From positions 1 through 20,074 of IMG/VR virus record IMGVR_UViG_3300046003_008725: a stretch of DNA of 20,074 nt; one strand, given 5' to 3'. The notes below the pieces were generated by a model, which did no database searches, had not been told where the DNA came from, and saw only the letters and a list, made by a program, of their open reading frames with translations. Made by a program: the position numbers and the translations under genes. Below, in pieces: positions 1,274 to 12,885 of this stretch; position 1 is the stretch's first letter, and each line of letters starts with the position of its first letter. Source of the DNA: a virus.

Positions 1274-1314
1274 ACTAACAATTTTTTTACATTTTTTTGA
1301 AGCAATTTCAAAAA

Positions 1315-1392
1315 GCACGCAAACTATTTCGCGAAAGTTCCATGCAAAATTTTTGGAAAACCGAAGTTTTCAGCGTAGATTTACATTGTTGA
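1315..1392 (+). promoter_or_regulatory. promoter cassette, copy 1
   Basis: The cassette contains TTG at 1353-1355, exactly 20 bases, then TAGATTTAC at 1376-1384 and the shared tail ATTGTTGA. This matches the Bacteroidota promoter layout (-33 TTG and -7 TAnnTTTG) except for A in place of the final G. The spacer holds a hairpin-capable GAAAAC-CGAA-GTTTTC. Upstream lies an imperfect inverted repeat (CGCAAA ... TTTCGCG) and the shared TTCCATG. It precedes the gene at 1446. In this copy the 53-base leader lacks the CGG/TGG hairpin seen in other copies. Confidence 0.8.
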
Positions 1393-1445
1393 GTTACAGG
1401 TTAACGAAACGTAAATAAATATATAAAATATAAATAATAAAGGTT

Positions 1446-1865
1446 ATGAGAGGAATACAATTATTTCAGATTAGAAAATCCAATAATAAGTTTGATCCTA
1501 AGTATTTAATGAATGATAACGATGAGTTATTTGTTGTAGAATATAATGGTTACCATATTACTATAATTAGACATAAGTTTTGGGATAATACATACCAATC
1601 AAATTTAAGAATAATTAAAGATGGAAGTCAATTGGTGGATGGAGAACCTAACGAATATGGAGTAAGTTGTGCTCTATGGATCCAACAAATATCTTCCAAA
1701 AATCCAGGAAAAACTGAAGAAAAACTGATATTAAAAGCTAAAGCTATTATTGATAGGTTAGATGAAAATGGAAGAGGGGAGTTATGTCTATGTAATAGAG
1801 GTAATATAATTGAAGATCCGAATATAATTGCAGAATTTGCAAAATACGCGCAAACTGTTTCGTAA
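1446..1865 (+). CDS. hypothetical phage protein, 139 aa
   Basis: The start is set by the cluster-wide signal AATAATAAAGGTTATG, and the gene follows promoter copy 1. The 139-residue product begins MRGIQLFQIRKSNNKFDPKY and has an alpha/beta middle (FVVEYNGYHITIIRHKFW), a long helix around EEKLILKAKAIIDRL and a C-terminal segment with two cysteines (ELCLCNRGN). The CxC pair could bind metal but is too small a motif to assign. The last codons, for KYAQTVS, lie inside promoter copy 2, so the cassette supplies the C-terminal tail and the stop. Not recognised as a known family. Confidence 0.7.
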   Translation: MRGIQLFQIRKSNNKFDPKYLMNDNDELFVVEYNGYHITIIRHKFWDNTYQSNLRIIKDGSQLVDGEPNEYGVSCALWIQQISSKNPGKTEEKLILKAKAIIDRLDENGRGELCLCNRGNIIEDPNIIAEFAKYAQTVS

Positions 1866-1922
1866 AAATTCCATGTAATTTTGTTGGAGAACTGAGGAAG
1901 CGTTCGTAGATTTACATTGTTG
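1847..1922 (+). promoter_or_regulatory. promoter cassette, copy 2
   Basis: The cassette contains TTG at 1884-1886, 20 bases, TAGATTTAC at 1907-1915 and the tail ATTGTTG. The upstream part (CGCGCAAACTGTTTCG and TTCCATG) overlaps the last six codons and stop of the previous gene. The leader carries a GTACG/CGTAC inverted repeat (1922-1938) and then the CGG-loop hairpin at 1941-1965. It drives the genes at 1992 and 2233. Confidence 0.8.
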
Positions 1923-1940
1923 TACGTTTAAAGCGTACGC

Positions 1941-1965
1941 ATGATATAACACGGTGTTATATTAT
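1941..1965 (+). promoter_or_regulatory. leader hairpin with CGG loop, copy 2
   Basis: The arms ATGATATAACA (1941-1951) and TGTTATATTAT (1955-1965) pair over 11 positions including one G-U, closing a CGG triloop. The core ATATAACAC-G-GTGTTATAT is also a 19-base DNA inverted repeat, so a dimeric protein operator cannot be excluded. It lies about 20 bases after the predicted transcription start and 26 bases before the start codon at 1992. Related hairpins occur at 3665, 4470 and 6473. Confidence 0.7.
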
Positions 1966-1991
1966 AGAATAAAAATTAAATAATAAAGGTT

Positions 1992-2228
1992 ATGTTAAAT
2001 AAAGAAACATTAAACACATTAGAAAAAACATTCGGTCCATTCATTATAGATAGAGTTTGGGGTGGTAGTAATGCACCATTCCTTAGATTTGGTTATTGGA
2101 GAAGAGTAAATGTAAATCAACTCCAGTCTATTATTGGTAATGAAATTATTATTGAAGAAAATGATGATTGGGATGATGATTGTGGGGGTAAGTATATGTA
2201 CAAAATGATTGAACGATATAAAGGATAA
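1992..2228 (+). CDS. acidic hypothetical protein, 78 aa
   Basis: The start follows AATAATAAAGGTTATG. The product opens MLNKETLNTLEKTFGPFIID, has a central RVWGGSNAPFLRFGYWRR segment rich in aromatic and basic residues, and then a very acidic patch (EENDDWDDDCGG). This mix of a hydrophobic/aromatic core with an acidic patch recalls small phage host-takeover proteins, but no family was recognised. It is first in the operon of promoter copy 2, and its stop lies four bases before the next start. Confidence 0.7.
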   Translation: MLNKETLNTLEKTFGPFIIDRVWGGSNAPFLRFGYWRRVNVNQLQSIIGNEIIIEENDDWDDDCGGKYMYKMIERYKG

Positions 2229-2232
2229 TAAT

Positions 2233-2505
2233 ATGAAAACATTTAAAGATTTAGTATTTAATCCCCATCCATTAGGAGCAGGTATTCAAGCTGTTATGGA
2301 TTTTGAAAATGGATATGGTGTAAGTGTAGTACAAACTCCTTATTCATATGGTGGTAAAATAGGTCTATATGAAATAGCAGTAATGGATAGCGAGGGACAA
2401 GTAGTATATAATACTCCTGTAGCAGATGGTGTTATTGGTTATCTTAGAGAAGAAGACGTAACTGTTGGTATGGAACGAATTCAATTATTGCAAAGTGTTC
2501 AATAA
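2233..2505 (+). CDS. conserved phage hypothetical protein (FKDLVFxPHP type), 90 aa
   Basis: The start was placed at ATG 2233, not the upstream in-frame TTG at 2209, because 2233 comes just after the previous stop with an AAGGATAATAAT leader and gives the natural opening MKTFKDLVFNPHPLGAGIQA. The rest (NGYGVSVVQTPYSYGGKIGL, then LYEIAVMDSEGQVVYNTPVA) is beta-rich. From memory it resembles a small hypothetical family seen in many phages with a GYGVSVV..PYSYGG..GLYE..V core. No function is known to me. It is second in the operon of promoter copy 2, and promoter copy 3 begins one base after its stop. Confidence 0.8.
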   Translation: MKTFKDLVFNPHPLGAGIQAVMDFENGYGVSVVQTPYSYGGKIGLYEIAVMDSEGQVVYNTPVADGVIGYLREEDVTVGMERIQLLQSVQ

Positions 2506-2506
2506 A

Positions 2507-2582
2507 CGCGCGAACTGTTTCGCGAAAGTTCCATGCGCAAAATTTGGCTTTCGGAAAAATCGTTCGTAGATTTACATTGTTG
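2507..2582 (+). promoter_or_regulatory. promoter cassette, copy 3
   Basis: The cassette contains TTG at 2544-2546, 20 bases, TAGATTTAC at 2567-2575 and the tail ATTGTTG. This copy has the cleanest upstream inverted repeat: CGCGAA-CTGT-TTCGCG, followed by AAAGTTCCATG. Its leader does not have the CGG/TGG hairpin; instead GATTTGA (2582-2588) can pair with TTAAATC (2600-2606). It precedes the three-gene operon 2646-3534. Confidence 0.8.
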
Positions 2583-2645
2583 ATTTGAGTTATGACGTAT
2601 TAAATCAATAGTATTATATCATTTAACATATATAAAATAAAGGTT

Positions 2646-2984
2646 ATGAAAGCAGATATCAGAATTACAGCGCAGTATTATGAAAATTATAGTGATAATG
2701 ATACTCCATATTGGAAACCAAAAGGTGGTACCGAGTTTATTATCAAGGGAGTAGATCCCAATCCTGTTATGTTTGCTGCTCCTGGTGAGGTGGAGAAGGC
2801 TATCGAAAACCTATTGTATGATTATTGTAACAGTCATTCTAAGTATACTTTGATTGATTGGGAGTTTATATATAGTGAACCTATTGAATTAGATAAGGAT
2901 AATTTCCTATGGCATATGGGGATTGATGAGCATCCAGGGCCAGGTATGTTCATAAATGAAGATGATGAGGAATGGGCAAAATAA
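2646..2984 (+). CDS. hypothetical phage protein, 112 aa
   Basis: The start is fixed by AAATAAAGGTTATG. The product opens MKADIRITAQYYENYSDNDT, followed by PYWKPKGGTEFIIKG, a helix (EVEKAIENLLYDYCNSHS) and a very acidic C-terminus ending NEDDEEWAK. The ITAQYYENY...PHW/PYWKPKGG pattern looks familiar from uncharacterised phage proteins, but no function can be given. It is the first gene of the operon driven by promoter copy 3; 31 bases separate it from the next. Confidence 0.75.
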   Translation: MKADIRITAQYYENYSDNDTPYWKPKGGTEFIIKGVDPNPVMFAAPGEVEKAIENLLYDYCNSHSKYTLIDWEFIYSEPIELDKDNFLWHMGIDEHPGPGMFINEDDEEWAK

Positions 2985-3015
2985 TTGGTAGATAATTAAA
3001 TATAAAATAAAGGTT

Positions 3016-3276
3016 ATGTTAGAACAACTAAAAAATACACTTTCAGAATCAGTTATCGATATCTATACTTTTAGATCCGAAGATCTCCCACTTGAAGAGG
3101 AGTTTTATAAAGATCACTATGCTAGTATGGGATGGGCGTTATATAATATCCAGAAACATCTAACTCTCAAATCATTAATTGATGCTCTATACAACTACGA
3201 GTTTGATTATATGGGGATTGATAGTGAAGAAGAGGTTGATGAATTGTTAGAATCTTTCTTTGAATTAAGTAAATAA
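3016..3276 (+). CDS. acidic helical hypothetical protein, 86 aa
   Basis: The start follows AAATAAAGGTTATG. The product (MLEQLKNTLSESVIDIYTFR at the N-terminus, EEEVDELLESFFELSK at the C-terminus) is acidic and largely helical, with a few aromatic residues and no cysteine. No motif or family recognised. It is the second gene in the operon of promoter copy 3, with 15 bases to the next start. Confidence 0.7.
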   Translation: MLEQLKNTLSESVIDIYTFRSEDLPLEEEFYKDHYASMGWALYNIQKHLTLKSLIDALYNYEFDYMGIDSEEEVDELLESFFELSK

Positions 3277-3291
3277 TAAAATATAAAGGTT

Positions 3292-3534
3292 ATGTTAAAG
3301 CAAAATAAAAGAGAACCGTTACTAAAAAACTATCGAGGACAATACCGATACCTCTTCAACTGGAAGAGCGGAGGGTTCAATGATATATGGGCTGAGAATT
3401 TAGTAGAGTTCAAGAAGAAACTAAAGAGAGAGTATCCGGGATCAGAGTCACAAGTAGATTATGATACACTACATAAAGCTACTCTTACACGAAGTAGAGA
3501 ATGGGATAGAATTGGTAATATGTGGTGGGACTAA
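3292..3534 (+). CDS. basic hypothetical protein, 80 aa
   Basis: The start follows ATATAAAGGTTATG. In contrast to its acidic neighbours the product is basic and rich in Arg, Lys and Trp: MLKQNKREPLLKNYRGQYRY at the start, a helix WAENLVEFKKKLKREYP, and the ending NMWWD. The charge would suit nucleic-acid or RNA-polymerase binding, but that is only a charge argument. It is last in the operon; promoter copy 4 lies just downstream. Confidence 0.7.
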   Translation: MLKQNKREPLLKNYRGQYRYLFNWKSGGFNDIWAENLVEFKKKLKREYPGSESQVDYDTLHKATLTRSREWDRIGNMWWD

Positions 3535-3563
3535 CAAAGTACTTAAGTTAAATTGTTGTATTT

Positions 3564-3647
3564 GCAAGGAACGCGCGAATTGTTTCGCGAATGCTCCTTG
3601 CTACTTGCTTGGAGAAGCAAAAAATCGTTCGTAAATTTACATTGTTG
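3564..3647 (+). promoter_or_regulatory. promoter cassette, copy 4
   Basis: The cassette contains TTG at 3609-3611, 20 bases, TAAATTTAC at 3632-3640 and the tail ATTGTTG. The upstream inverted repeat is elaborated into a long composite hairpin: GCAAGGA (3564-3570) pairs with TCCTTGC (3595-3601) around the inner CGCGAA-TTGT-TTCGCG. That structure could also act as a weak terminator for the previous operon, though no U-run follows. It precedes the genes 3716-4349. Confidence 0.8.
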
Positions 3648-3664
3648 AGCGTTTAAGCTTCAAT

Positions 3665-3687
3665 TAGTATAACATGGTGTTATATTA
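3665..3687 (+). promoter_or_regulatory. leader hairpin with TGG loop, copy 4
   Basis: TAGTATAACA (3665-3674) pairs with TGTTATATTA (3678-3687) over ten positions including one G-U, closing a TGG triloop. It is the same element as at 1941 and in the same place, between the predicted transcription start and the first start codon. Differences from the other copies keep the pairing. Confidence 0.65.
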
Positions 3688-3715
3688 TAATATAATAAGG
3701 TAAATAATAATGGTT

Positions 3716-3877
3716 ATGGAAGATATGATAACAGTTCAAATCCTGAAAAATGGTCAACCACTTAAAGAATTTAAGTGTGAAGAGAAGAAGTTACATATAA
3801 CATTTGCTACAGCTCATTCTATAGCAGGTGGATTATGGAATGGTGTGGATGCATTTAGTGTAAAAATAAATAAATAA
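3716..3877 (+). CDS. small hypothetical protein, 53 aa
   Basis: Two in-frame ATGs occur (3710 and 3716). The second is chosen because it sits at the fixed position after the variant signal AATAATGGTT. The product reads MEDMITVQILKNGQPLKEFK, then a short helix and GGLWNGVDAFSVKINK: a beta-rich small domain, perhaps a hairpin plus helix. No family recognised. It is the first gene of the operon of promoter copy 4. Confidence 0.6.
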   Translation: MEDMITVQILKNGQPLKEFKCEEKKLHITFATAHSIAGGLWNGVDAFSVKINK

Positions 3878-3881
3878 GATT

Positions 3882-4001
3882 ATGACAAATAGCGAGATTT
3901 TGGATTTAATAGATACATTAAACCAGTATAAAACAGGTAATGTAACAAATAAGGGATTAGAAGAGGCGTTAGAAGAAGCATTAAATAAATTAAAAAAATA
4001 A
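3882..4001 (+). CDS. very small helical protein, 39 aa
   Basis: An ATG at 3882 after AAATAAATAAGATT opens 39 codons ending at TAA 3999-4001. The product, MTNSEILDLIDTLNQYKTGN followed by a helix LEEALEEALNKLKK, is a plausible two-helix peptide. It starts five bases after the previous gene and ends twelve bases before the next, filling the operon exactly. Function unknown. Confidence 0.55.
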   Translation: MTNSEILDLIDTLNQYKTGNVTNKGLEEALEEALNKLKK

Positions 4002-4013
4002 ATAATAAAGGTT

Positions 4014-4349
4014 ATGTCAACAAGATCTAAAATTGGTATCGAAAATGAAAATGGTAGAGTTAATGCTATCTACTGTCACTGGGATGGATATCCTGAATAT
4101 AATGGTAAGATATTAAAAGAACACTATTCAGATAGAAATAAACTACAACAACTACTTGAATTAGGAGATATTAGTGTGCTAAAGGAGGATTTGGATAAAG
4201 TAGAAGCTTATCATAGAGATCTTTGTAAAACATACTATCCACCAATGGAATATCTAAATGTAAATTCATTTAGTAGACAATTTGGATTTGAATATGGATA
4301 TGTGTTATCAAAAGAAGGTGAATGGTTAACATTTGAATCCAAACTTTAA
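4014..4349 (+). CDS. conserved phage protein, RSxIGIENENG / YCHWDGYP type, 111 aa
   Basis: The start follows AATAATAAAGGTTATG. The protein opens MSTRSKIGIENENGRVNAIY and goes on CHWDGYPEYNGKILKEHYSD. This RSxIxIxxxxGxxxxIYCHWDGYPxxxGxxLxxxY signature belongs to a small protein found widely in tailed phages and plasmids, of unknown function as far as I know. The remainder is a helical segment (KLQQLLELGDISVLKEDLDK) and an aromatic-rich C-terminus (QFGFEYGYVLSKEGEWLTFE). It is the last gene of the operon of promoter copy 4; copy 5 starts 25 bases downstream. Confidence 0.85.
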   Translation: MSTRSKIGIENENGRVNAIYCHWDGYPEYNGKILKEHYSDRNKLQQLLELGDISVLKEDLDKVEAYHRDLCKTYYPPMEYLNVNSFSRQFGFEYGYVLSKEGEWLTFESKL

Positions 4350-4374
4350 ATAATAGATTGCAAGATTTTCAAAG

Positions 4375-4452
4375 ATTGCGTAAACTGCTTCGCGAATGCC
4401 TCATGTGCAAAATTTGGTTTACTGAAGAATTGTTCGTAGATTTACATTGTTG
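4375..4452 (+). promoter_or_regulatory. promoter cassette, copy 5
   Basis: The cassette contains TTG at 4414-4416, 20 bases, TAGATTTAC at 4437-4445 and the tail ATTGTTG. The upstream inverted repeat is degraded (TTGCGTAAACTGCTTCGCG) and the shared box reads CTCATG. It heads the longest operon of the cluster, 4516-5966 (six genes). Confidence 0.8.
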
Positions 4453-4469
4453 AACGTTTAAGCTTCAAT

Positions 4470-4492
4470 TGATATGACATGGTGTTATATCA
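4470..4492 (+). promoter_or_regulatory. leader hairpin with TGG loop, copy 5
   Basis: TGATATGACA (4470-4479) and TGTTATATCA (4483-4492) pair over ten positions with one G-U and close a TGG triloop. At the ninth pair out from the loop this copy has G-C where the others have G-U, A-U and U-G, so pairing is kept although both bases vary. It is followed by the leader of the gene at 4516. Confidence 0.65.
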
Positions 4493-4515
4493 TATAGAAT
4501 AAAAAAATAAAGGTT

Positions 4516-4752
4516 ATGGAAATGAATATGACAGTAGAAAAGGTTATCGGAATGTATGCAGATGGTATTATTACAGATAGAGAATGCTGTGATATGATTG
4601 ATGTTATTACCGGGGAGTATACAACTATAAAAGAGGAAGTGGATTATGATTGGTATACAGAAGAAGAAATGGAACACGATTATAAGTGGGATGTAGACAA
4701 CTACGAGGAATACGATTATGAGTTAGAAGCTTCACAGTATGATTATTTGTAA
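4516..4752 (+). CDS. very acidic hypothetical protein, 78 aa
   Basis: The start is set by AAAATAAAGGTTATG. The N-terminal half (MEMNMTVEKVIGMYADGIIT, then DRECCDMIDVITGEY) is helical with a Cys-Cys pair. The C-terminal half is a run of Asp, Glu and Tyr (WYTEEEMEHDYKWDVDNYEE and onward), giving a very low expected pI. Such tails are typical of DNA-mimic or host-polymerase-binding phage proteins, but no specific family is recognised. It is the first gene of the operon of promoter copy 5. Confidence 0.7.
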   Translation: MEMNMTVEKVIGMYADGIITDRECCDMIDVITGEYTTIKEEVDYDWYTEEEMEHDYKWDVDNYEEYDYELEASQYDYL

Positions 4753-4773
4753 TTTAGATATAAAATAAAAGTT

Positions 4774-5007
4774 ATGATATCATTTAGAGAATTAAAAGAG
4801 TTGATTATTGAGAATGAAGTAGAATCTATGGTAGATGTACATGGAGAAGATGCTTCAATGTATATTGATGGTATTACAGATGAAATTAATATGTGTGAGG
4901 ATATAGATGATATTATCTCATTTTATGATCAACATGCAATTGATATGAGAGAAGCATTTTATATCGTTACTGAGTTATTAATGAACAATTCAAATCTAAA
5001 TAAATAA
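4774..5007 (+). CDS. acidic helical hypothetical protein, 77 aa
   Basis: The start follows AAAATAAAAGTTATG, a one-base variant of the cluster signal. The product (MISFRELKELIIENEVESMV, then a strongly acidic middle rich in Asp and Ile) is helical with no cysteine and ends MNNSNLNK. Unrecognised. It is the second gene of the operon, 21 bases after the previous stop and 8 bases before the next start. Confidence 0.7.
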   Translation: MISFRELKELIIENEVESMVDVHGEDASMYIDGITDEINMCEDIDDIISFYDQHAIDMREAFYIVTELLMNNSNLNK

Positions 5008-5015
5008 TAAAAGTT

Positions 5016-5324
5016 ATGACATTACCATTTAATTTAACATCCGTTCTATCTGCTAGAGAAATTGAAGGATACGATATTATCGAAAATACATTCCCGGTTA
5101 TTAGTAAGTGGAGTGGTAGACAGGTTACAATAACAGAAGCGATATATGAGGCGCTAAGTGAAGTTATATCGGATTATGAAGATTGGCCTGAGGATCAGGG
5201 ATTTGGTAGTTCAGATATGACATTTGCTAAAAAATCATTTATTGATAGTATGATTGGAATAGCTAATCTACATGATGATTATAAAACCGATTTTAGACCA
5301 TTTCTTAAAGTAATTCAAAAATAA
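5016..5324 (+). CDS. hypothetical protein, 102 aa
   Basis: The start follows AATAATAAAAGTTATG. The product opens MTLPFNLTSVLSAREIEGYD and has a helix EAIYEALSEVISDYEDWPED, a glycine/serine turn (GFGSSDM) and a C-terminal helix bundle. The hydrophobic pattern suggests a compact globular alpha-rich domain. No motif or family recognised. Third gene in the operon of promoter copy 5. Confidence 0.7.
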   Translation: MTLPFNLTSVLSAREIEGYDIIENTFPVISKWSGRQVTITEAIYEALSEVISDYEDWPEDQGFGSSDMTFAKKSFIDSMIGIANLHDDYKTDFRPFLKVIQK

Positions 5325-5335
5325 ATATAAAGGTT

Positions 5336-5539
5336 ATGGTGTATAAAGATTGGGATGAATATGTAAATCCAAACTATATTTCAGTAGTATTAGAGGATAA
5401 TAGCAAACTAATAATATGGAAAAAAAATGTTAGAGGTGGTACTAGAGTATATCAGGCTATTTTAAGAGCTTTTCATGATAATGATTATACGATTACGAAT
5501 AAAATTGTAAGTGCTATGGTTGACAATTTAAATAAATAA
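5336..5539 (+). CDS. small hypothetical protein, 67 aa
   Basis: The start follows AAATATAAAGGTTATG. The product opens MVYKDWDEYVNPNYISVVLE, continues with strands DNSKLIIWKKNVRGGTRVYQ and ends with a helix IVSAMVDNLNK. It looks like a small alpha/beta fold of moderate basicity. Not recognised. Fourth gene of the operon; the next gene starts four bases after its stop. Confidence 0.65.
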   Translation: MVYKDWDEYVNPNYISVVLEDNSKLIIWKKNVRGGTRVYQAILRAFHDNDYTITNKIVSAMVDNLNK

Positions 5540-5543
5540 AGAT

Positions 5544-5720
5544 ATGAACAGACGACAATACAGTACAATCATTCTAAATACACTCCCTATTCTACTGTGT
5601 GTGGGAGTAATAATTGCATTTACCTCCCCTGGACGTGATATAACAATGTGGGATATAATGGTAGGAATAATCGTGAGTTACTATTCAGGAATAATCGTGT
5701 ATAAAAATAAAAATAAATAA
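5544..5720 (+). CDS. small membrane protein with two transmembrane helices, 58 aa
   Basis: The ATG at 5544 comes after AAATAAAGAT. The product has a basic N-terminus (MNRRQYST), a hydrophobic helix about residues 9-28 (IILNTLPILLCVGVIIAFTS), a short polar loop (PGRDIT) and a second hydrophobic stretch about residues 35-52 (DIMVGIIVSYYSGIIVY), then a lysine/asparagine tail. This is the layout of a small inner-membrane protein with both ends inside. It could be a lysis, superinfection-exclusion or host-membrane modifier; nothing selects among these. Confidence 0.65.
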   Translation: MNRRQYSTIILNTLPILLCVGVIIAFTSPGRDITMWDIMVGIIVSYYSGIIVYKNKNK

Positions 5721-5729
5721 ATTCAGCAT

Positions 5730-5966
5730 ATGAATAATACAATCACAAACACAACAACGTATAACGGATGGAGCAATTGGGACACGTGGAATGCCTACAA
5801 TTGGATAACGGATGATGAGCTAATGTATCGTCGAGCTGCTCGTTCAACAGATGCTAATCACCTATATGAAACAATGGAAAATTATATTGTACGGGTGAAT
5901 GATGGGATTGATATTGATAATGTTAATTGGGTGGAATTGTATGATGCGTTTAATGAGGGTGTGTAG
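5730..5966 (+). CDS. conserved phage protein with NGWSNWDTWNA motif, 78 aa
   Basis: The ATG at 5730 opens MNNTITNTTTYNGWSNWDTW, then NAYNWITDDEL. The YNGWxNxxTWNxxxW core is a motif I know from small uncharacterised proteins of phages and plasmids, so a conserved domain is likely; its function is unknown. The rest is helical and acidic. The start lacks the AAAGGTT signal (leader AAATTCAGCAT), unlike the earlier genes of this operon. It is the last gene before a gene-free stretch beginning with two hairpins. Confidence 0.8.
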   Translation: MNNTITNTTTYNGWSNWDTWNAYNWITDDELMYRRAARSTDANHLYETMENYIVRVNDGIDIDNVNWVELYDAFNEGV

Positions 5967-5971
5967 ATAAT

Positions 5972-5991
5972 AGTTTCGATGTACCGAAACT
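5972..5991 (+). terminator. hairpin after the 4516-5966 operon
   Basis: AGTTTCG (5972-5978) pairs with CGAAACT (5985-5991) around the loop ATGTAC, seven base pairs, starting six bases after the stop at 5966. The following TTCTATTTAG is only mildly U-rich, so termination here alone would be weak; the second hairpin at 6021 may do the work. Confidence 0.45.
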
Positions 5992-6020
5992 TCTATTTAG
6001 ATATAACGGAACTATAATTT

Positions 6021-6042
6021 AGAATAACCAACAGGTTATTTT
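6021..6042 (+). terminator. terminator of the AGAATAACC / GGTTATTTT type, rightward
   Basis: AGAATAACC (6021-6029) pairs with GGTTATTTT (6034-6042), counting one G-U, around the loop AACA. The 3' arm runs into the U-rich TTTT, so this is a low-GC intrinsic terminator candidate. The same element with one loop base changed occurs in the opposite orientation at 7499-7520, at the end of the leftward operon. Confidence 0.6.
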
Positions 6043-6398
6043 AGATCCAACATAACTAATGTTTAGATGCATGGTAACACAAGTGTGGACAACGGAATAT
6101 AAGTGGGGGTGGTAATGGTAGAAGTTTCGATTAATCTAAAAGTAATGGTATAGTATGTGGAACGGGATAGGTATGGTGTTGGGGATAGGGAGAGGCAAAT
6201 ATTAACCTACTCACATCGCTAGCCAACCTATTCTAAACCTCTTCTAAAGTATATACACGAATTGCACTATTTGCAAAAAACACATATAAAAATTGCAAAT
6301 AAGAAGAAAGCTCACTTATACCAATTGTTAAATTTGCAAAGTTTAATTTAAATTTAAAATTTTTTTGTTAAATTTTTAAAAAAATTATTAACCACTTG

Positions 6399-6459
6399 TT
6401 AAAAGCCTCATGTGAAACGCTTGGAGACCTGAGGATCTGTTCGTAGATTTACATTGTTG
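6399..6459 (+). promoter_or_regulatory. promoter cassette, copy 6
   Basis: The cassette contains TTG at 6421-6423, 20 bases, TAGATTTAC at 6444-6452 and the tail ATTGTTG. The upstream CGCGAA repeat is absent; instead TTAAAAG stands 15 bases before TTG, as in copy 7. The shared box reads CCTCATG. The leader has the palindrome CGTTAACG and then the CGG hairpin at 6473. It drives 6518, 6811 and possibly the tRNA-like RNA. Confidence 0.8.
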
Positions 6460-6472
6460 ATTTACGTTAACG

Positions 6473-6497
6473 ATTATATAACACGGTGTTATATGAT
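6473..6497 (+). promoter_or_regulatory. leader hairpin with CGG loop, copy 6
   Basis: ATTATATAACA (6473-6483) and TGTTATATGAT (6487-6497) pair over 11 positions with one U-G, closing a CGG triloop. It sits 20 bases upstream of the start codon at 6518. The pair at position nine is U-G here, against G-U, A-U and G-C in the other three copies. Confidence 0.7.
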
Positions 6498-6517
6498 AAT
6501 ATAAAATAATAATGGTT

Positions 6518-6793
6518 ATGAACGGTATTGAATTTAATTTTGTAGGTAAGTATAATAATGGAACATTAGAATCTGGTATTCCATTCACATACAAAGGTAG
6601 AGAATATAAAACACATGTATTTACCTATTCTAGAGATACAAATTATTCCATTGGTAGAGCTGAGTTATTCGGTTCCACAATGAATATAGATAAGGTAACT
6701 AAACAGTATGTTAGTTTGTATTCATATGATATGATGACTCAGAGAACCAGCTATAAAATGGCTTTATCAGAAATGGTATTCAACGTAGAATAG
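6518..6793 (+). CDS. hypothetical protein, 91 aa
   Basis: Two in-frame ATGs (6512 and 6518) are present. 6518 is preferred because it keeps the fixed spacing AATAATGGTT-ATG shared with the gene at 3716. The product opens MNGIEFNFVGKYNNGTLESG and continues IPFTYKGREYKTHVFTYSRD: a beta-rich protein with alternating strands and many Tyr, ending in a helix-strand segment. No family recognised. It is the first gene of the operon of promoter copy 6, with 17 bases to the next start. Confidence 0.7.
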   Translation: MNGIEFNFVGKYNNGTLESGIPFTYKGREYKTHVFTYSRDTNYSIGRAELFGSTMNIDKVTKQYVSLYSYDMMTQRTSYKMALSEMVFNVE

Positions 6794-6810
6794 AATAATA
6801 AAATAATAAT

Positions 6811-7026
6811 ATGAATCGTTACATGAAATTTAAAATCGAGAAAGAAACAAGGTGGGATGCTAGTAAAATGGATAGCGTAACCAAGTATTTTATTTGGGCG
6901 GGTAGCCAATGTTTAGCTTTAGTTAATACTGAAGCTGAAGCTATAGTAATGTATGATAAAATCAAAGCCAACTATATTAAAGGTGAGACTATAGTGATAC
7001 TAGAAGAGGATATTGAGATAAAATAA
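6811..7026 (+). CDS. hypothetical protein, 71 aa
   Basis: The ATG at 6811 follows AAAATAATAAT. The product begins MNRYMKFKIEKETRWDASKM and ends with a beta/alpha part, KYFIWAGSQCLALVNTEAEA then IVMYDKIKANY and an acidic tail. It reads like a small alpha/beta domain. Methionines at residues 1 and 5 are both possible starts; the first is used. Not recognised. The tRNA-like RNA begins nine bases after its stop. Confidence 0.65.
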   Translation: MNRYMKFKIEKETRWDASKMDSVTKYFIWAGSQCLALVNTEAEAIVMYDKIKANYIKGETIVILEEDIEIK

Positions 7027-7034
7027 TATAAAAT

Positions 7035-7157
7035 AGTCAGGTGGCGGAAATAGTGGCTGTGCATTCTCCAGCCAATGTGGTAGACGCACTTCAGAAATAA
7101 GACGGGTATAGGCTAAGCGCTAATCCTATACGTGCAGGTTCGAGTCCTGCCCTGACA
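7035..7157 (+). tRNA. aberrant tRNA-like RNA, leucine-type D arm, anticodon not assigned
   Basis: Acceptor: GTCAGG (7036-7041) pairs with CCTGAC (7151-7156); the seventh pair would be A-A. T arm: GCAGG (7134-7138), loop TTCGAGT, CCTGC (7146-7150), with all the usual conserved bases. A long variable arm, GTATAGG (7106-7112) with CCTATAC (7125-7131), makes it type II. TGGCGGAAA at 7042 and TGGTAGACGC at 7078 are the two halves of a leucine-like D arm, but about 27 extra bases with their own hairpin (TGGCTG/CAGCCA) lie between them. No normal 5+7 anticodon arm can be drawn at 7088-7105. CCA is not encoded. It may be a decayed, rearranged or non-translational tRNA. Confidence 0.5.
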
Positions 7158-7533: not shown

Positions 7534-7929
7534 TCAGTACTCGTTGCCAGCGGCAATACGCGTTACGTATTTTTTAACCATTATCACATCTTGAACTAAA
7601 CTACTAACAGTTTCGTTATTAGATTTTTTATCAAACTCATAGTTTAATCTTATGGTTTCTATCTTTTCATTCAAGGTACGTAAAGTAGAGGGGATATCCA
7701 CTTCTTTTTCAAAACCATTATTTTTAAGGATAGTTCGCATTTGTTCAATTTCCACGTACAAATCCAAATATTTTGAATCTAAATCTTTAATCAAAGCATG
7801 ATATTCAATCAACGTTCGTTCATACTCATCATCTTTAAAAGCACTTTTTCTAGATTTCCATAACCCAAAAACACAAATACCCAGGGTAACTAAACCCCCA
7901 ATGACAACGCCTAATGCAAATAATTCCAT
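7534..7929 (-). CDS. membrane-anchored coiled-coil protein, 131 aa
   Basis: The start was set at the minus-strand ATG ending at 7929, seven bases after the stop of the thioredoxin-like gene; an upstream in-frame ATG would overlap that gene by 23 bases. Residues 2-23 (ELFALGVVIGGLVTLGICVF) form one transmembrane helix, followed by KSRKS as the cytoplasmic stop signal. The rest is charged and helical with heptad patterns (LIEYHALIKDLDSKYLDLYV, and LRTLNEKIETIRLNYEF). An N-terminal anchor plus coiled coil is the shape of phage i-spanins and of several unrelated phage membrane proteins; no outer-membrane partner was seen, so spanin is only one option. Third gene of the leftward operon. Confidence 0.75.
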   Translation of the reverse strand: MELFALGVVIGGLVTLGICVFGLWKSRKSAFKDDEYERTLIEYHALIKDLDSKYLDLYVEIEQMRTILKNNGFEKEVDIPSTLRTLNEKIETIRLNYEFDKKSNNETVSSLVQDVIMVKKYVTRIAAGNEY

Positions 7930-7936
7930 AATTTTT

Positions 7937-8239
7937 TTATTTAAATAATGCCGATTCAATTTCTTTTATATTCGTAGATTGGATTCTTTCTCTTTCTTTT
8001 CCCCCCACAAAATAAACCAAAGTGGGGTAATATTCAATGTCGTAATAATCAGCTGTACTTTCAAATCTATCACCATCCAGAAACATAAATTCTACGTCCG
8101 TATGAACTTGTTCAAGTAACGGAACAATAATTTCGGTTACTCGTTTACATGCTGAACATGTGGGGGAACCAAACACAACCACGGCTTTTTCTACTTGCCG
8201 TGTATAGTTTTGTAGTGGAAAACTTTTTACGTGTATCAT
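7937..8239 (-). CDS. thioredoxin-like protein with CSAC active site, 100 aa
   Basis: The start is taken at the minus-strand ATG ending at 8239 (MIHVKSFPLQNYTRQVEKAV); a longer frame to 8275 would overlap the upstream gene. The product has the thioredoxin pattern: strand AVVVFGSPTC, the redox motif C28-S-A-C31 at the start of a helix, a strand VEFMFLDGD, and YYPTLVYF at 70-77 with the expected cis-proline at P72. At 100 residues it is close to normal thioredoxin length. The motif is CSAC instead of the common CGPC or CPYC. Phage thioredoxins and glutaredoxins usually reduce ribonucleotide reductase or act as cofactors of phage enzymes; no reductase lies in this window. No signal peptide, so cytoplasmic. 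Confidence 0.85.
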   Translation of the reverse strand: MIHVKSFPLQNYTRQVEKAVVVFGSPTCSACKRVTEIIVPLLEQVHTDVEFMFLDGDRFESTADYYDIEYYPTLVYFVGGKERERIQSTNIKEIESALFK

Positions 8240-8255
8240 AAAATATTTTTTATAG

Positions 8256-8423
8256 CTAAAAAAACAAAGCCCCAATAGTTACTCCAAGATATACTCCTAA
8301 AGACATTGAATTTAACATTAGTGTTACCCCGTATTTTAGCTCTTCATTTTTAATAAATTTTGGAACTGTAAAAGATATCAACATTGACCACCCTACAATT
8401 AAAATAAATAATAATGGATTCAT
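8256..8423 (-). CDS. small membrane protein with two transmembrane helices, 55 aa
   Basis: The minus-strand ATG ends at 8423 and the TAG is at 8256-8258. The product is MNPLLFILIVGWSMLISFTV, then a charged loop PKFIKNEELKYG, then VTLMLNSMSLGVYLGVTIGA and LFF: two hydrophobic helices joined by a polar turn. It begins about ten bases from the predicted transcription start, so its leader is extremely short. It is the first gene of the leftward operon, 16 bases before the thioredoxin-like gene. Function not recognised. Confidence 0.75.
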   Translation of the reverse strand: MNPLLFILIVGWSMLISFTVPKFIKNEELKYGVTLMLNSMSLGVYLGVTIGALFF

Positions 8424-8907: not shown

Positions 8908-8974
8908 AAGCTTTTAAAAGTACTCCACAGGTAGCTTGGCTCCGCAGGAGGCCTGTCGTATATTTACGGTGTTG
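8904..8974 (+). promoter_or_regulatory. promoter cassette, copy 7
   Basis: The cassette contains TTG at 8936-8938, 20 bases, TATATTTAC at 8959-8967 and then GGTGTTG. The upstream part is the palindrome TTAAAAGCTTTTAA, which starts inside the stop codon of the previous gene; AAAAG stands 15 bases before TTG as in copy 6. The spacer is GC-rich and self-complementary (CTCC-GCA-GGAG, within ACAGG/CCTGT). The leader can form TGTTGT (8970-8975) with ACAACA (8984-8989). It drives the DUF932 gene. Confidence 0.75.
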
Positions 8975-9008: not shown

Positions 9009-9812
9009 ATGCTAAATCTACAAAATTCCGAGTTCAAAACATTAGAACAAATCAGATCAATCGCTCCTTCAATTTTTACAAATCATGGAGCTAAAGGTAC
9101 TTCCGAAAAGTACTCTCACATTCCTACCGACCGAGTAATTCGAGATATGGAGCTTCTAGGATGGGGAGTTGCAGATGCTAAAGAAGTTAAAGCACGTAAA
9201 AATGCAGGTTACCAAAAACACTTAGTTGTATTCAGAAATCCTGATGTTGTTATCAATGGTGCTGATAATGATACCGTTTTCCCTCAAATTCTATTAACTA
9301 ACTCACACGATGGTAAAAATAGCTTTACGTTTACTGCGGGATTGTTTAGAATGATTTGTGAGAATGGTTTGGTTGTTTCAACTGAACAGTTTGATGAAAT
9401 TAAGGTTCGTCACATGGGTTATGATTTTGATAAATTGCAAGATACAATTAAAAAATTGGTTGAAAATCTTCCTCTAACAGTAGAGGCAATGAATCAAATG
9501 GTTAATACCGAATTGGAACAAGATCAAATTGTATCCTTAGCTAAAGATTTGTTGGATCTAAGAGTTGAAAATAGCAAAAATACATACGATATTAATGCTA
9601 TTGAAGCTATTTTAACTCCTCAAAGAAACCAAGATATGGGTACTGATTTGTGGAAAGTATTTAATCGAATCCAAGAAAATATTCTTGAAGGAAATTTTGA
9701 TTATCAAACACTTAAAGGTAAATCTAGAAGTGCTAGAAAAATCAAAAACTTCCAACAAGATTTGGAGTTAAATAAAAAGATGTTTTCTAAGGCTTTAGAG
9801 TATGCTAATTAA
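9009..9812 (+). CDS. DUF932-family phage/plasmid protein, 267 aa
   Basis: The start is set by AAATAAAAGTTATG after promoter copy 7. Family signs: SHIPT (36-40), a GYQKHLVVFRNPD strand region (67-79), the hallmark NSHDGKNSFTFTAGLFRMIC then ENGLVV (98-123), and IKVRH (131-135), followed by a long helical part. This order (SHxPT, HxxxFR, NSHDGxxxxxxxxGxFRxxCxNGLV, IxxRHxG) is that of DUF932, common in phages and conjugative plasmids and of unresolved function; the length is normal. It is the only recognisable enzyme-sized protein among the cassette-controlled genes, so it is probably made early. A GC-rich terminator follows at once. Confidence 0.9.
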   Translation: MLNLQNSEFKTLEQIRSIAPSIFTNHGAKGTSEKYSHIPTDRVIRDMELLGWGVADAKEVKARKNAGYQKHLVVFRNPDVVINGADNDTVFPQILLTNSHDGKNSFTFTAGLFRMICENGLVVSTEQFDEIKVRHMGYDFDKLQDTIKKLVENLPLTVEAMNQMVNTELEQDQIVSLAKDLLDLRVENSKNTYDINAIEAILTPQRNQDMGTDLWKVFNRIQENILEGNFDYQTLKGKSRSARKIKNFQQDLELNKKMFSKALEYAN

Positions 9813-12183: not shown

Positions 12184-12885
12184 ATGATAAAAAAACGAAA
12201 CAAAAAAAGTAAGAATTATTTTACTCAAGAAACTGAAGATTATATTGTATTATATAATAACTCAAAGGATTTTGAAGAAAGAAGTAGGATATATGAGAGA
12301 CACATCCACTATGCCTTTTTTAAATTAACCCAAAATATAATTCATACTTTTAAATTTTATCATACCGAAGTAGAGGAATTAGAACACCTACAACATGAAA
12401 TAATCACTTTCCTTTTATCTAAAATTCATTTATTTGACCCATCCAGAGGAGCTAAAGCATATTCTTATTTTGGAACTATTGTTAAAAGATGGCTTATATT
12501 ATATAATACTAAAAATTATAATAAAAAAGTAAATAAAACGGAAATTGGTGAATTAGACAAAGAAGGTACTACACATTTTTATACTTTAGAAGATAATTCT
12601 AAAAACGAACTAGATAAGTATTTAGATTTATATGTTGAACATTGTACTAAAAATATATTTGAATTATTTCCTAAAAAGAATGATGCCCAAGTAGCAGATG
12701 CAATACTTGAAATTTTTAGAAATAGAGAAAATTTAGAAATTTTTAATAAGAAAGCACTTTATATTTACATCAGAGAAATAATAGATGTAAAAACCCCCAA
12801 AATAACTAAAATATCTAACCAATTGTACGATATTTTTAAAACTAATTATGTTTTTTATCTTGAAAACGGATACGCTAAATTTTAA
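12184..12885 (+). CDS. late-transcription sigma factor, T4 gp55-like, 233 aa
   Basis: The product has a YFTQETEDYIVLYNNSKDFE and RSRIYERHIHYAFFKLTQNI N-terminal part, then TEVEELEHLQHEIITFLLSK (61-80) and FDPSRGAKAYSYFGTIVKRW (84-103). This matches sigma region 2 (core binding and -10 melting) as found in gp55-like factors of T4-type phages. The C-terminal part is less conserved and there is no region 4, which explains a promoter without a -35-type element. It redirects host RNA polymerase to phage late genes. It stands right before the structural block it should control. The strand-opening region was identified by pattern, not alignment. Confidence 0.85.
   Translation: MIKKRNKKSKNYFTQETEDYIVLYNNSKDFEERSRIYERHIHYAFFKLTQNIIHTFKFYHTEVEELEHLQHEIITFLLSKIHLFDPSRGAKAYSYFGTIVKRWLILYNTKNYNKKVNKTEIGELDKEGTTHFYTLEDNSKNELDKYLDLYVEHCTKNIFELFPKKNDAQVADAILEIFRNRENLEIFNKKALYIYIREIIDVKTPKITKISNQLYDIFKTNYVFYLENGYAKF

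Follow-up and report, generated by a model that had tools for sequence, protein, structure and literature searches.

The locus considered here raises the question of why small genes of no recognised function should be arranged in modules that are each opened by a copy of the same repeat, as they are at about 1.3-6.5 kb of the IMG/VR virus record IMGVR_UViG_3300046003_008725. This record, a fragment of a phage genome, was analysed complete over its 20,074 bases and is hereafter called the window. With a probability that we estimate at about 0.75, the repeats are transcription cassettes resembling the promoter-early stem-loops (PeSLs) of T4-type phages, and they lie in a hyperplastic region in which homologous recombination between cassettes exchanges gene modules. 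No confident Pfam match was obtained among the accessory proteins scanned. The baseplate wedge protein of the window is 47% identical to its homolog in Flavobacterium phage vB_FspM_immuto (MW353175, hereafter immuto), and its DUF932-like protein f020 is 42% identical to the immuto DUF932 protein. Immuto is T4-like, with gp20 and gp23 encoded in its genome. These similarities agree with the apparent Bacteroidota phage proposed in an original prediction, made from the letters alone, and point to a T4-superfamily phage of Bacteroidota.

Anatomy of the cassette repeat

The repeat that had been predicted before accessory operons was readily confirmed: with as many as 3 mismatches allowed, the core TAGATTTACATTGTTG gave 8 matches in the window against 0.59 expected, a number reached in 0 of 100 shuffles. 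Six full cassettes with the core GTARATTTACATTGTTG occupy 1297-6459, their core G lying at 1375, 1906, 2566, 3631, 4436, and 6443. Scanning IMG/VR with the latter core identified further contigs, and the ten relatives examined contain 2-11 copies each, grouped in a single accessory region (11 of 11 copies within 85.8-105.9 kb in the 113-kb relative G006); the repeat thus recurs across metagenomic phage contigs, as the original prediction had proposed to check.

The 61 full copies collected were reduced to 22 non-redundant copies, of which 21 align without gaps over 95 nt (positions -78 to +16, counted from the core G). The final counts include a small number of copies that the pattern search had missed because their tail is shorter by 1 nt. 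The repeated unit is real, with a conserved length of about 95 nt and not the 75 bases first proposed. Its 5' part reads TTGnAn..TTTtCAA, then cgcgcrAACtgtTTngcGAAAGytcC, and its 3' part carries TTGG at -22 from the core G, then TTCGTARATTTACATTGTTG. In the exceptional copy (L045, G001, about 7123), the upstream block is 11 bp nearer to the -33 element, approximately one helical turn. This 56-nt block gave high scores in G006 exclusively at cassettes, other promoters of the same class being devoid of it. The near-rigid spacing suggests bound proteins more than an RNA structure.

Other origins were considered for the repeat. As a structured RNA, the upstream block has arms that pair just weakly better than swapped ones, and the rigid spacing favours DNA binding. 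The best match to a known RNA family, Ocean-VII, scored 17 bits against a gathering score of 53.5 bits, which is chance level. To look for a cellular or prophage origin, 85,000 genomes of bacteria and archaea were scanned with the core pattern; the 7 copies obtained, each of them single and in taxa unrelated to one another, were judged to be chance. A looser pattern hit some unrelated viral contigs once each, which likewise seems to be chance.

Gene exchange at the cassettes

Comparison of the related genomes revealed that cassettes are kept and that the genes between them differ strongly, as the original prediction had anticipated; the same genes without exchange did not appear. For instance, the gene after f008 and its cassette is f015 in the window, G005, and G006, and f097 in G004 and G007, and the gene across the cassette from f004 is f056, f007, or f012, depending on the relative. 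Cassettes are mosaics whose left half tracks the gene upstream and whose right half tracks the gene downstream. When computed over all cassette pairs, none being hand-selected, identity in pairs with a common upstream gene only was 0.81 at -105 to -79 and 0.46 at +17 to +26, and the respective values in pairs with a common downstream gene only were 0.42-0.52 and 0.75.

The f056 module lies between the cassettes at 1375 and 1906, and G004 and G007 have no f056 and one cassette at this place. The part of these single cassettes (G004:2970 and G007:11194) left of -38 agrees with the window cassette at 1375 in 24/26 and 25/28 informative sites, and the part right of -30 agrees with the cassette at 1906 in 39/39; 0 of 20,000 shuffles were as good. 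A chimeric cassette is the product expected of recombination between neighbouring cassettes, or of the reverse event, and recombination inside cassettes thus moves genes. The crossover intervals vary among chimeras (-38 to -30, -30 to -24, -5 to +3, and -2 to +17), which argues for homologous and not site-specific recombination. Indels of one to three genes were found at cassette junctions in 12 of 27 cases, against 22% of junctions with a cassette (P=0.007); with the immuto type of cassette (see below), 64% of indel sites carry one against 51% of junctions (P=0.003). Gene content changes upon recombination between units, as documented by the chimeras at f056 gain or loss, the mosaic profile, and these indels.

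The cassette would be pictured as a rigid predicted promoter unit of about 95 bp, in which an upstream regulatory block is followed by the -33 TTGG, a 20-nt spacer, the -7 TAnnTTTA, and an ATTGTTG start region; next would come an exchangeable leader, usually with a hairpin, and a TAAAGGTTATG start site. Any small gene behind a cassette would get the same expression, and the preceding transcript would also be terminated in those copies that have a hairpin around the -33 TTG. One- or few-gene modules would be inserted, deleted, or replaced by homologous recombination between cassettes, which is possible because cassettes are similar within and between genomes.

Layout of the window

The features of the window are the following, all on the plus strand.

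1297-1391, cassette copy 1 (core G 1375), comprising a palindrome (TTGnAn..TTTCAA), a conserved block, TTGG (-33), TARATTTAC (-7), and an ATTGTTG tail
1392-1445, leader type A (agttacaggttaacgaaacg), the same type being found before f087 and f097 in relatives
1446-1865, accessory gene f056, a module between two cassettes; G004 and G007 have a chimeric cassette in its place
1828-1922, cassette copy 2 (core G 1906), overlapping the f056 3' end
1923-1991, leader type B, with two adjacent hairpins (GTACG..CGTAC and TGATATAACACGGTGTTATATTA)
1992-2505, accessory genes f007 (1992-2228) and f031 (2233-2505)
2488-2582, cassette copy 3 (core G 2566), overlapping the f031 3' end
2583-2645, leader type C, with hairpin TTGATTT..AAATCAA
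2646-3534, accessory genes f014, f012, and f008; the two internal junctions are cassette-free, with TAAAGGTTATG starts
3553-3647, cassette copy 4 (core G 3631), with a long upstream hairpin CAAGGA..TCCTTG
3648-3715, leader type D, with TATAACATGGTGTTATA hairpin
3716-4349, accessory genes f015, f013, and f016
4358-4452, cassette copy 5 (core G 4436)
4453-4515, leader of copy 5, with TGATATGACATGGTGTTATATCA hairpin in which G-U is kept
4516-5966, accessory genes f045, f017, f005, a unique open reading frame (ORF) at 5336-5539, f046, and f018
6365-6459, cassette copy 6 (core G 6443), with the most diverged upstream block
6460-6517, leader type E, with ATATAACACGGTGTTATAT hairpin
6518-7026, accessory genes f006 and f047
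8936-8974, predicted promoter of the same class without upstream block (TTGG-N19-TATATTTACGGTGTTG), before the conserved DUF932-like f020
9009-9812, conserved gene f020 (PHROG 12094; DUF932-like)

A predicted promoter class departing from the host consensus

Of the promoter motif of the cassettes, TTG-N20-TAnnTTTA, the immuto genome contains 35 occurrences and G006 contains 24, against 2.0 and 2.2 expected, respectively, and no enrichment of the host form TAnnTTTG was detected in either genome. The structural gene blocks of immuto, which make up 40% of its genome, hold 2 of these 35 sites (P=5e-6). This scarcity suggests that the promoter class may be used early or middle, possibly via a phage-altered polymerase. 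The class also precedes conserved genes such as f020, where the diverged short copy at 8958 keeps AAAG, TTGG, and GTANATTTAC and is devoid of the upstream block. Repeats inside conserved operons would have spoken against exchangeable cassettes; the full cassette was not found in such a position, and only the short form precedes a conserved operon.

Primary (sigma-A) promoters of Bacteroidota consist of a -33 TTTG and a -7 TANNTTTG (PMC6847099; PMC9723704). The phage class resembles them by its -33 TTG, a spacing of about 20 nt, and TAnnTTT at -7. It differs by an A in place of the last G, which is nearly invariant in the host -7 element, and is distinct from sigma-A promoters in this respect; moreover, the -33 element is strict in the phage class, and that of sigma-A promoters is weak in F. 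johnsoniae. As originally proposed, this promoter is different from that of T4 PeSLs, but it is not the plain host consensus either.

Related arrays in immuto and other phages

The cassette logic recurs with another tail in immuto and dozens of contigs. Immuto contains 16 copies of TTG-N20-TATMTTTAGGTATCAATAATTAAAAC on one strand at 67.6-73.9 kb (0 in shuffles), nearly all directly 5' of one small gene. Immuto-related contigs yielded 309 copies in 44 loci, where 180 of 269 interior modules are single-gene. In 99% of the 188 non-redundant copies of this type, the TTG is placed at precisely -23, at a distance of 20 nt from the -7 element, and other tails are found on the same promoter class in the further relatives L148, L158, and L187. 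Both accessory regions are located near DUF932, T5orf172, and baseplate genes, and they share promoter class and spacing, with one cassette per small gene. The immuto array differs from the window type by having the tail TATMTTTAGGTATCAATAATTAAAAC, a shorter leader, and no 56-nt upstream block. No published description of the immuto array was found in the literature searched.

Hairpins and leaders

The upstream inverted repeat of the original prediction is present, but its strength is confined to part of the copies (-6.6 kcal/mol for own arms versus -5.8 kcal/mol for swapped ones, P=0.018). A second pairing around the -33 TTGG gave P values from 0.002 to 0.04, varying with the arms chosen. A convincing terminator-like stem, spanning the -33 element and followed by a T tract, occurs in 3 of 22 window-type copies (e.g., CCGAAAGCTTGGCTTTCGGCTTTTTT), against 0.43 (max 2) in swapped controls, and in 0 of the 6 cassettes of the window itself. 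As to the predicted leader hairpin, most long leaders open with one in which the invariant TTG tail forms the 5' arm. A second leader hairpin, TATAACAYGGTGTTATA, was identified in 4 of 6 window copies and follows in many leaders, with G-U-preserving changes.

In the immuto type, TTG-spanning hairpins clearly seem to be under selection, as judged from their folding energies (own -3.8 versus swapped -2.5 kcal/mol; 0 of 5000 permutations as low) and from terminator-like TTG-spanning stems with a T tract (24 of 188 copies versus 4.8, max 12, in swapped controls). In G006 (L060), further members of the promoter class, at about 50601 and 52685, display perfect nested terminators, e.g., AGCTTGGAGACCCAAGCTCTTTTTTTT-ACC-TTTATAT and AGCTTGGAATTCCAAGCTTTTTTT.

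Comparison with T4 PeSLs

PeSLs of T4-type phages were reportedly treated by Arbiol et al. in 2010 and Comeau et al. in 2014, and are said to have been defined in phage RB49. In RB49, hairpins are found inside sigma-70 promoters, e.g., TTGACAGGGGATCGGTGATCCCCTATACT; TTGACGGGGATCGCGAGATCCCCTATACT is a hairpin within the spacer. The studies of Arbiol et al. and Comeau et al. are cited in PMC4503421.

The Bacteroidota cassettes share with PeSLs the occurrence of repeated promoter units between small unrelated genes in an accessory region of T4-like phages, what may be a stem-loop merged with the promoter in part of the copies, and the addition or removal of genes by recombination between units. 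As is typical of PeSLs, the copies are confined to one accessory region among small ORFs. PeSLs are further characterised by a stem-loop acting as an effective terminator and by mini-circles that are excised. By analogy, the cassettes would work like T4 PeSLs. In contrast to the PeSL promoter (TTGACA/TATAAT), that of the cassettes is TTG-N20-TAnnTTTA; their hairpin surrounds the -33 element and places the T tract within the spacer, as against spacer or -10 in PeSLs, and is found in a minority of copies (24/188 in the immuto type, 3/22 in the window type). The 56-nt upstream block and, in the window type, a pair of 5' leader hairpins are additional to PeSLs. Because their promoter is not of the sigma-70 type, the cassettes were not classified as PeSLs in the strict sense. 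The PeSL-like reading of the original prediction is thus partly supported: chimeric cassettes and changing genes speak for it, and the rarity of the hairpin with T tract in the window type does not. PeSL-style shuffling of accessory genes would thereby extend to a further bacterial phylum, in whose phages the promoter is another one and the hairpin is placed differently.

Alternative explanations

Several points weigh against exchange through the cassettes. Gene adjacency is lost in 63% of comparisons at cassette junctions versus 73% at cassette-free ones, and 15 of the 27 small indels occurred without a cassette, so that the cassettes could be bystanders merely sitting between genes. The triplets used for chimeras were chosen by eye (3 of the 12 tried had no chimera), gene families were called by simple ORF rules, and the hairpin evidence for the window cassette type is modest. 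The recombination points originally predicted hold as far as crossovers lie within chimeric cassettes, but they are not privileged ones. A reading in which the repeats are plain promoters of a single regulon, their likeness being maintained by selection for a common activator or polymerase and gene turnover proceeding by other means, is unlikely. Protein binding is indicated by the rigid spacing and by the 11-bp deletion, close to one helical turn, adjacency breaks are not commoner at cassettes, and the promoter class serves conserved genes too; yet cassette halves travel with different neighbours, the f056 gain or loss junction is a chimeric cassette, and indel sites are richer in cassettes in both types. 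Integron-like cassettes, moved by a dedicated recombinase at a fixed point of the repeat, are highly improbable: despite ordered arrays of single-gene modules and palindromes in the repeat, crossovers fall at differing positions, and no recombinase or integrase was recognised among the window proteins scanned, the whole phage not having been searched.

Synteny breakpoints per kb amount to 12.1 at cassettes, 19.3 at cassette-free gene starts, and 3.0 elsewhere, the corresponding breakpoint sites numbering 87 at cassettes (40 expected) and 91 at cassette-free gene starts (26 expected). Cassette-free gene starts are a second type of exchange site beside the cassettes, and the start region AATAATAAAGGTTATG (A[AT]nGTTATG), found in 12 of the window's 16 accessory genes versus 1 of its 14 core genes, might serve gene exchange. 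G005 carries a new gene placed precisely between leader B and f007. That exchange proceeds mainly via this gene-start repeat in one-gene units, the cassette being another unit gained or lost, is nevertheless doubtful, since breaks inside genes are selected against and breakpoints at gene starts are expected anyway, and crossovers within cassettes were also observed. Accessory gene starts at 1436-6517 show a Shine-Dalgarno (SD)-like AAAGG only 2 nt from the ATG; SD sequences are said to be lacking in Bacteroidota. The motif AAAGGTTATG is also displayed by immuto genes outside the immuto array.

Homologous recombination between PeSL-like cassettes, our preferred explanation, may be part of something broader. 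Speculatively, Bacteroidota T4-superfamily phages could possess a general plug-in system with lineage-specific tails, a shared phage-specific TTG-N20-TAnnTTTA read by a host polymerase retuned by a phage factor, and terminators nested around the -33 element. If so, nested terminators would let modules enter or leave by recombination with their neighbours undisturbed. Several hundred natural cassette copies are now at hand, and the arrays flag accessory genes of Bacteroidota phages, perhaps including host-takeover and anti-defence genes. As the promoter class departs from the host consensus, polymerase redirection is testable in cultured immuto.

Other features of the window

A conserved protein encoded at 12184-12885 (+) is 45% identical to an immuto protein adjoining the baseplate genes; its Sigma70_r2 match is weak (E=0.038), no credible PDB match was found for it, and a role as gp55-like late sigma factor is a guess. 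Within the accessory region, a short divergent block of minus-strand genes spans 7534-8423, including a product (7937-8239) that is thioredoxin-like (CxxC) by eye and conserved in relatives. The non-coding segment 7160-7330 is rich in TACG/CGTA words, by contrast with its AT-rich surroundings. A tRNA-like element at 7036-7156 (+), not called by ARAGORN or Rfam, has ends GTCAGG..CCTGAC, the T-arm GCAGGTTCGAGTCCTGC, and an apparent D-arm insertion. Its slot holds a tRNA-Tyr in G006 (L052:3882-3971), and a tRNA-His lies close to the corresponding slot in G001 (L045:10797-10868).

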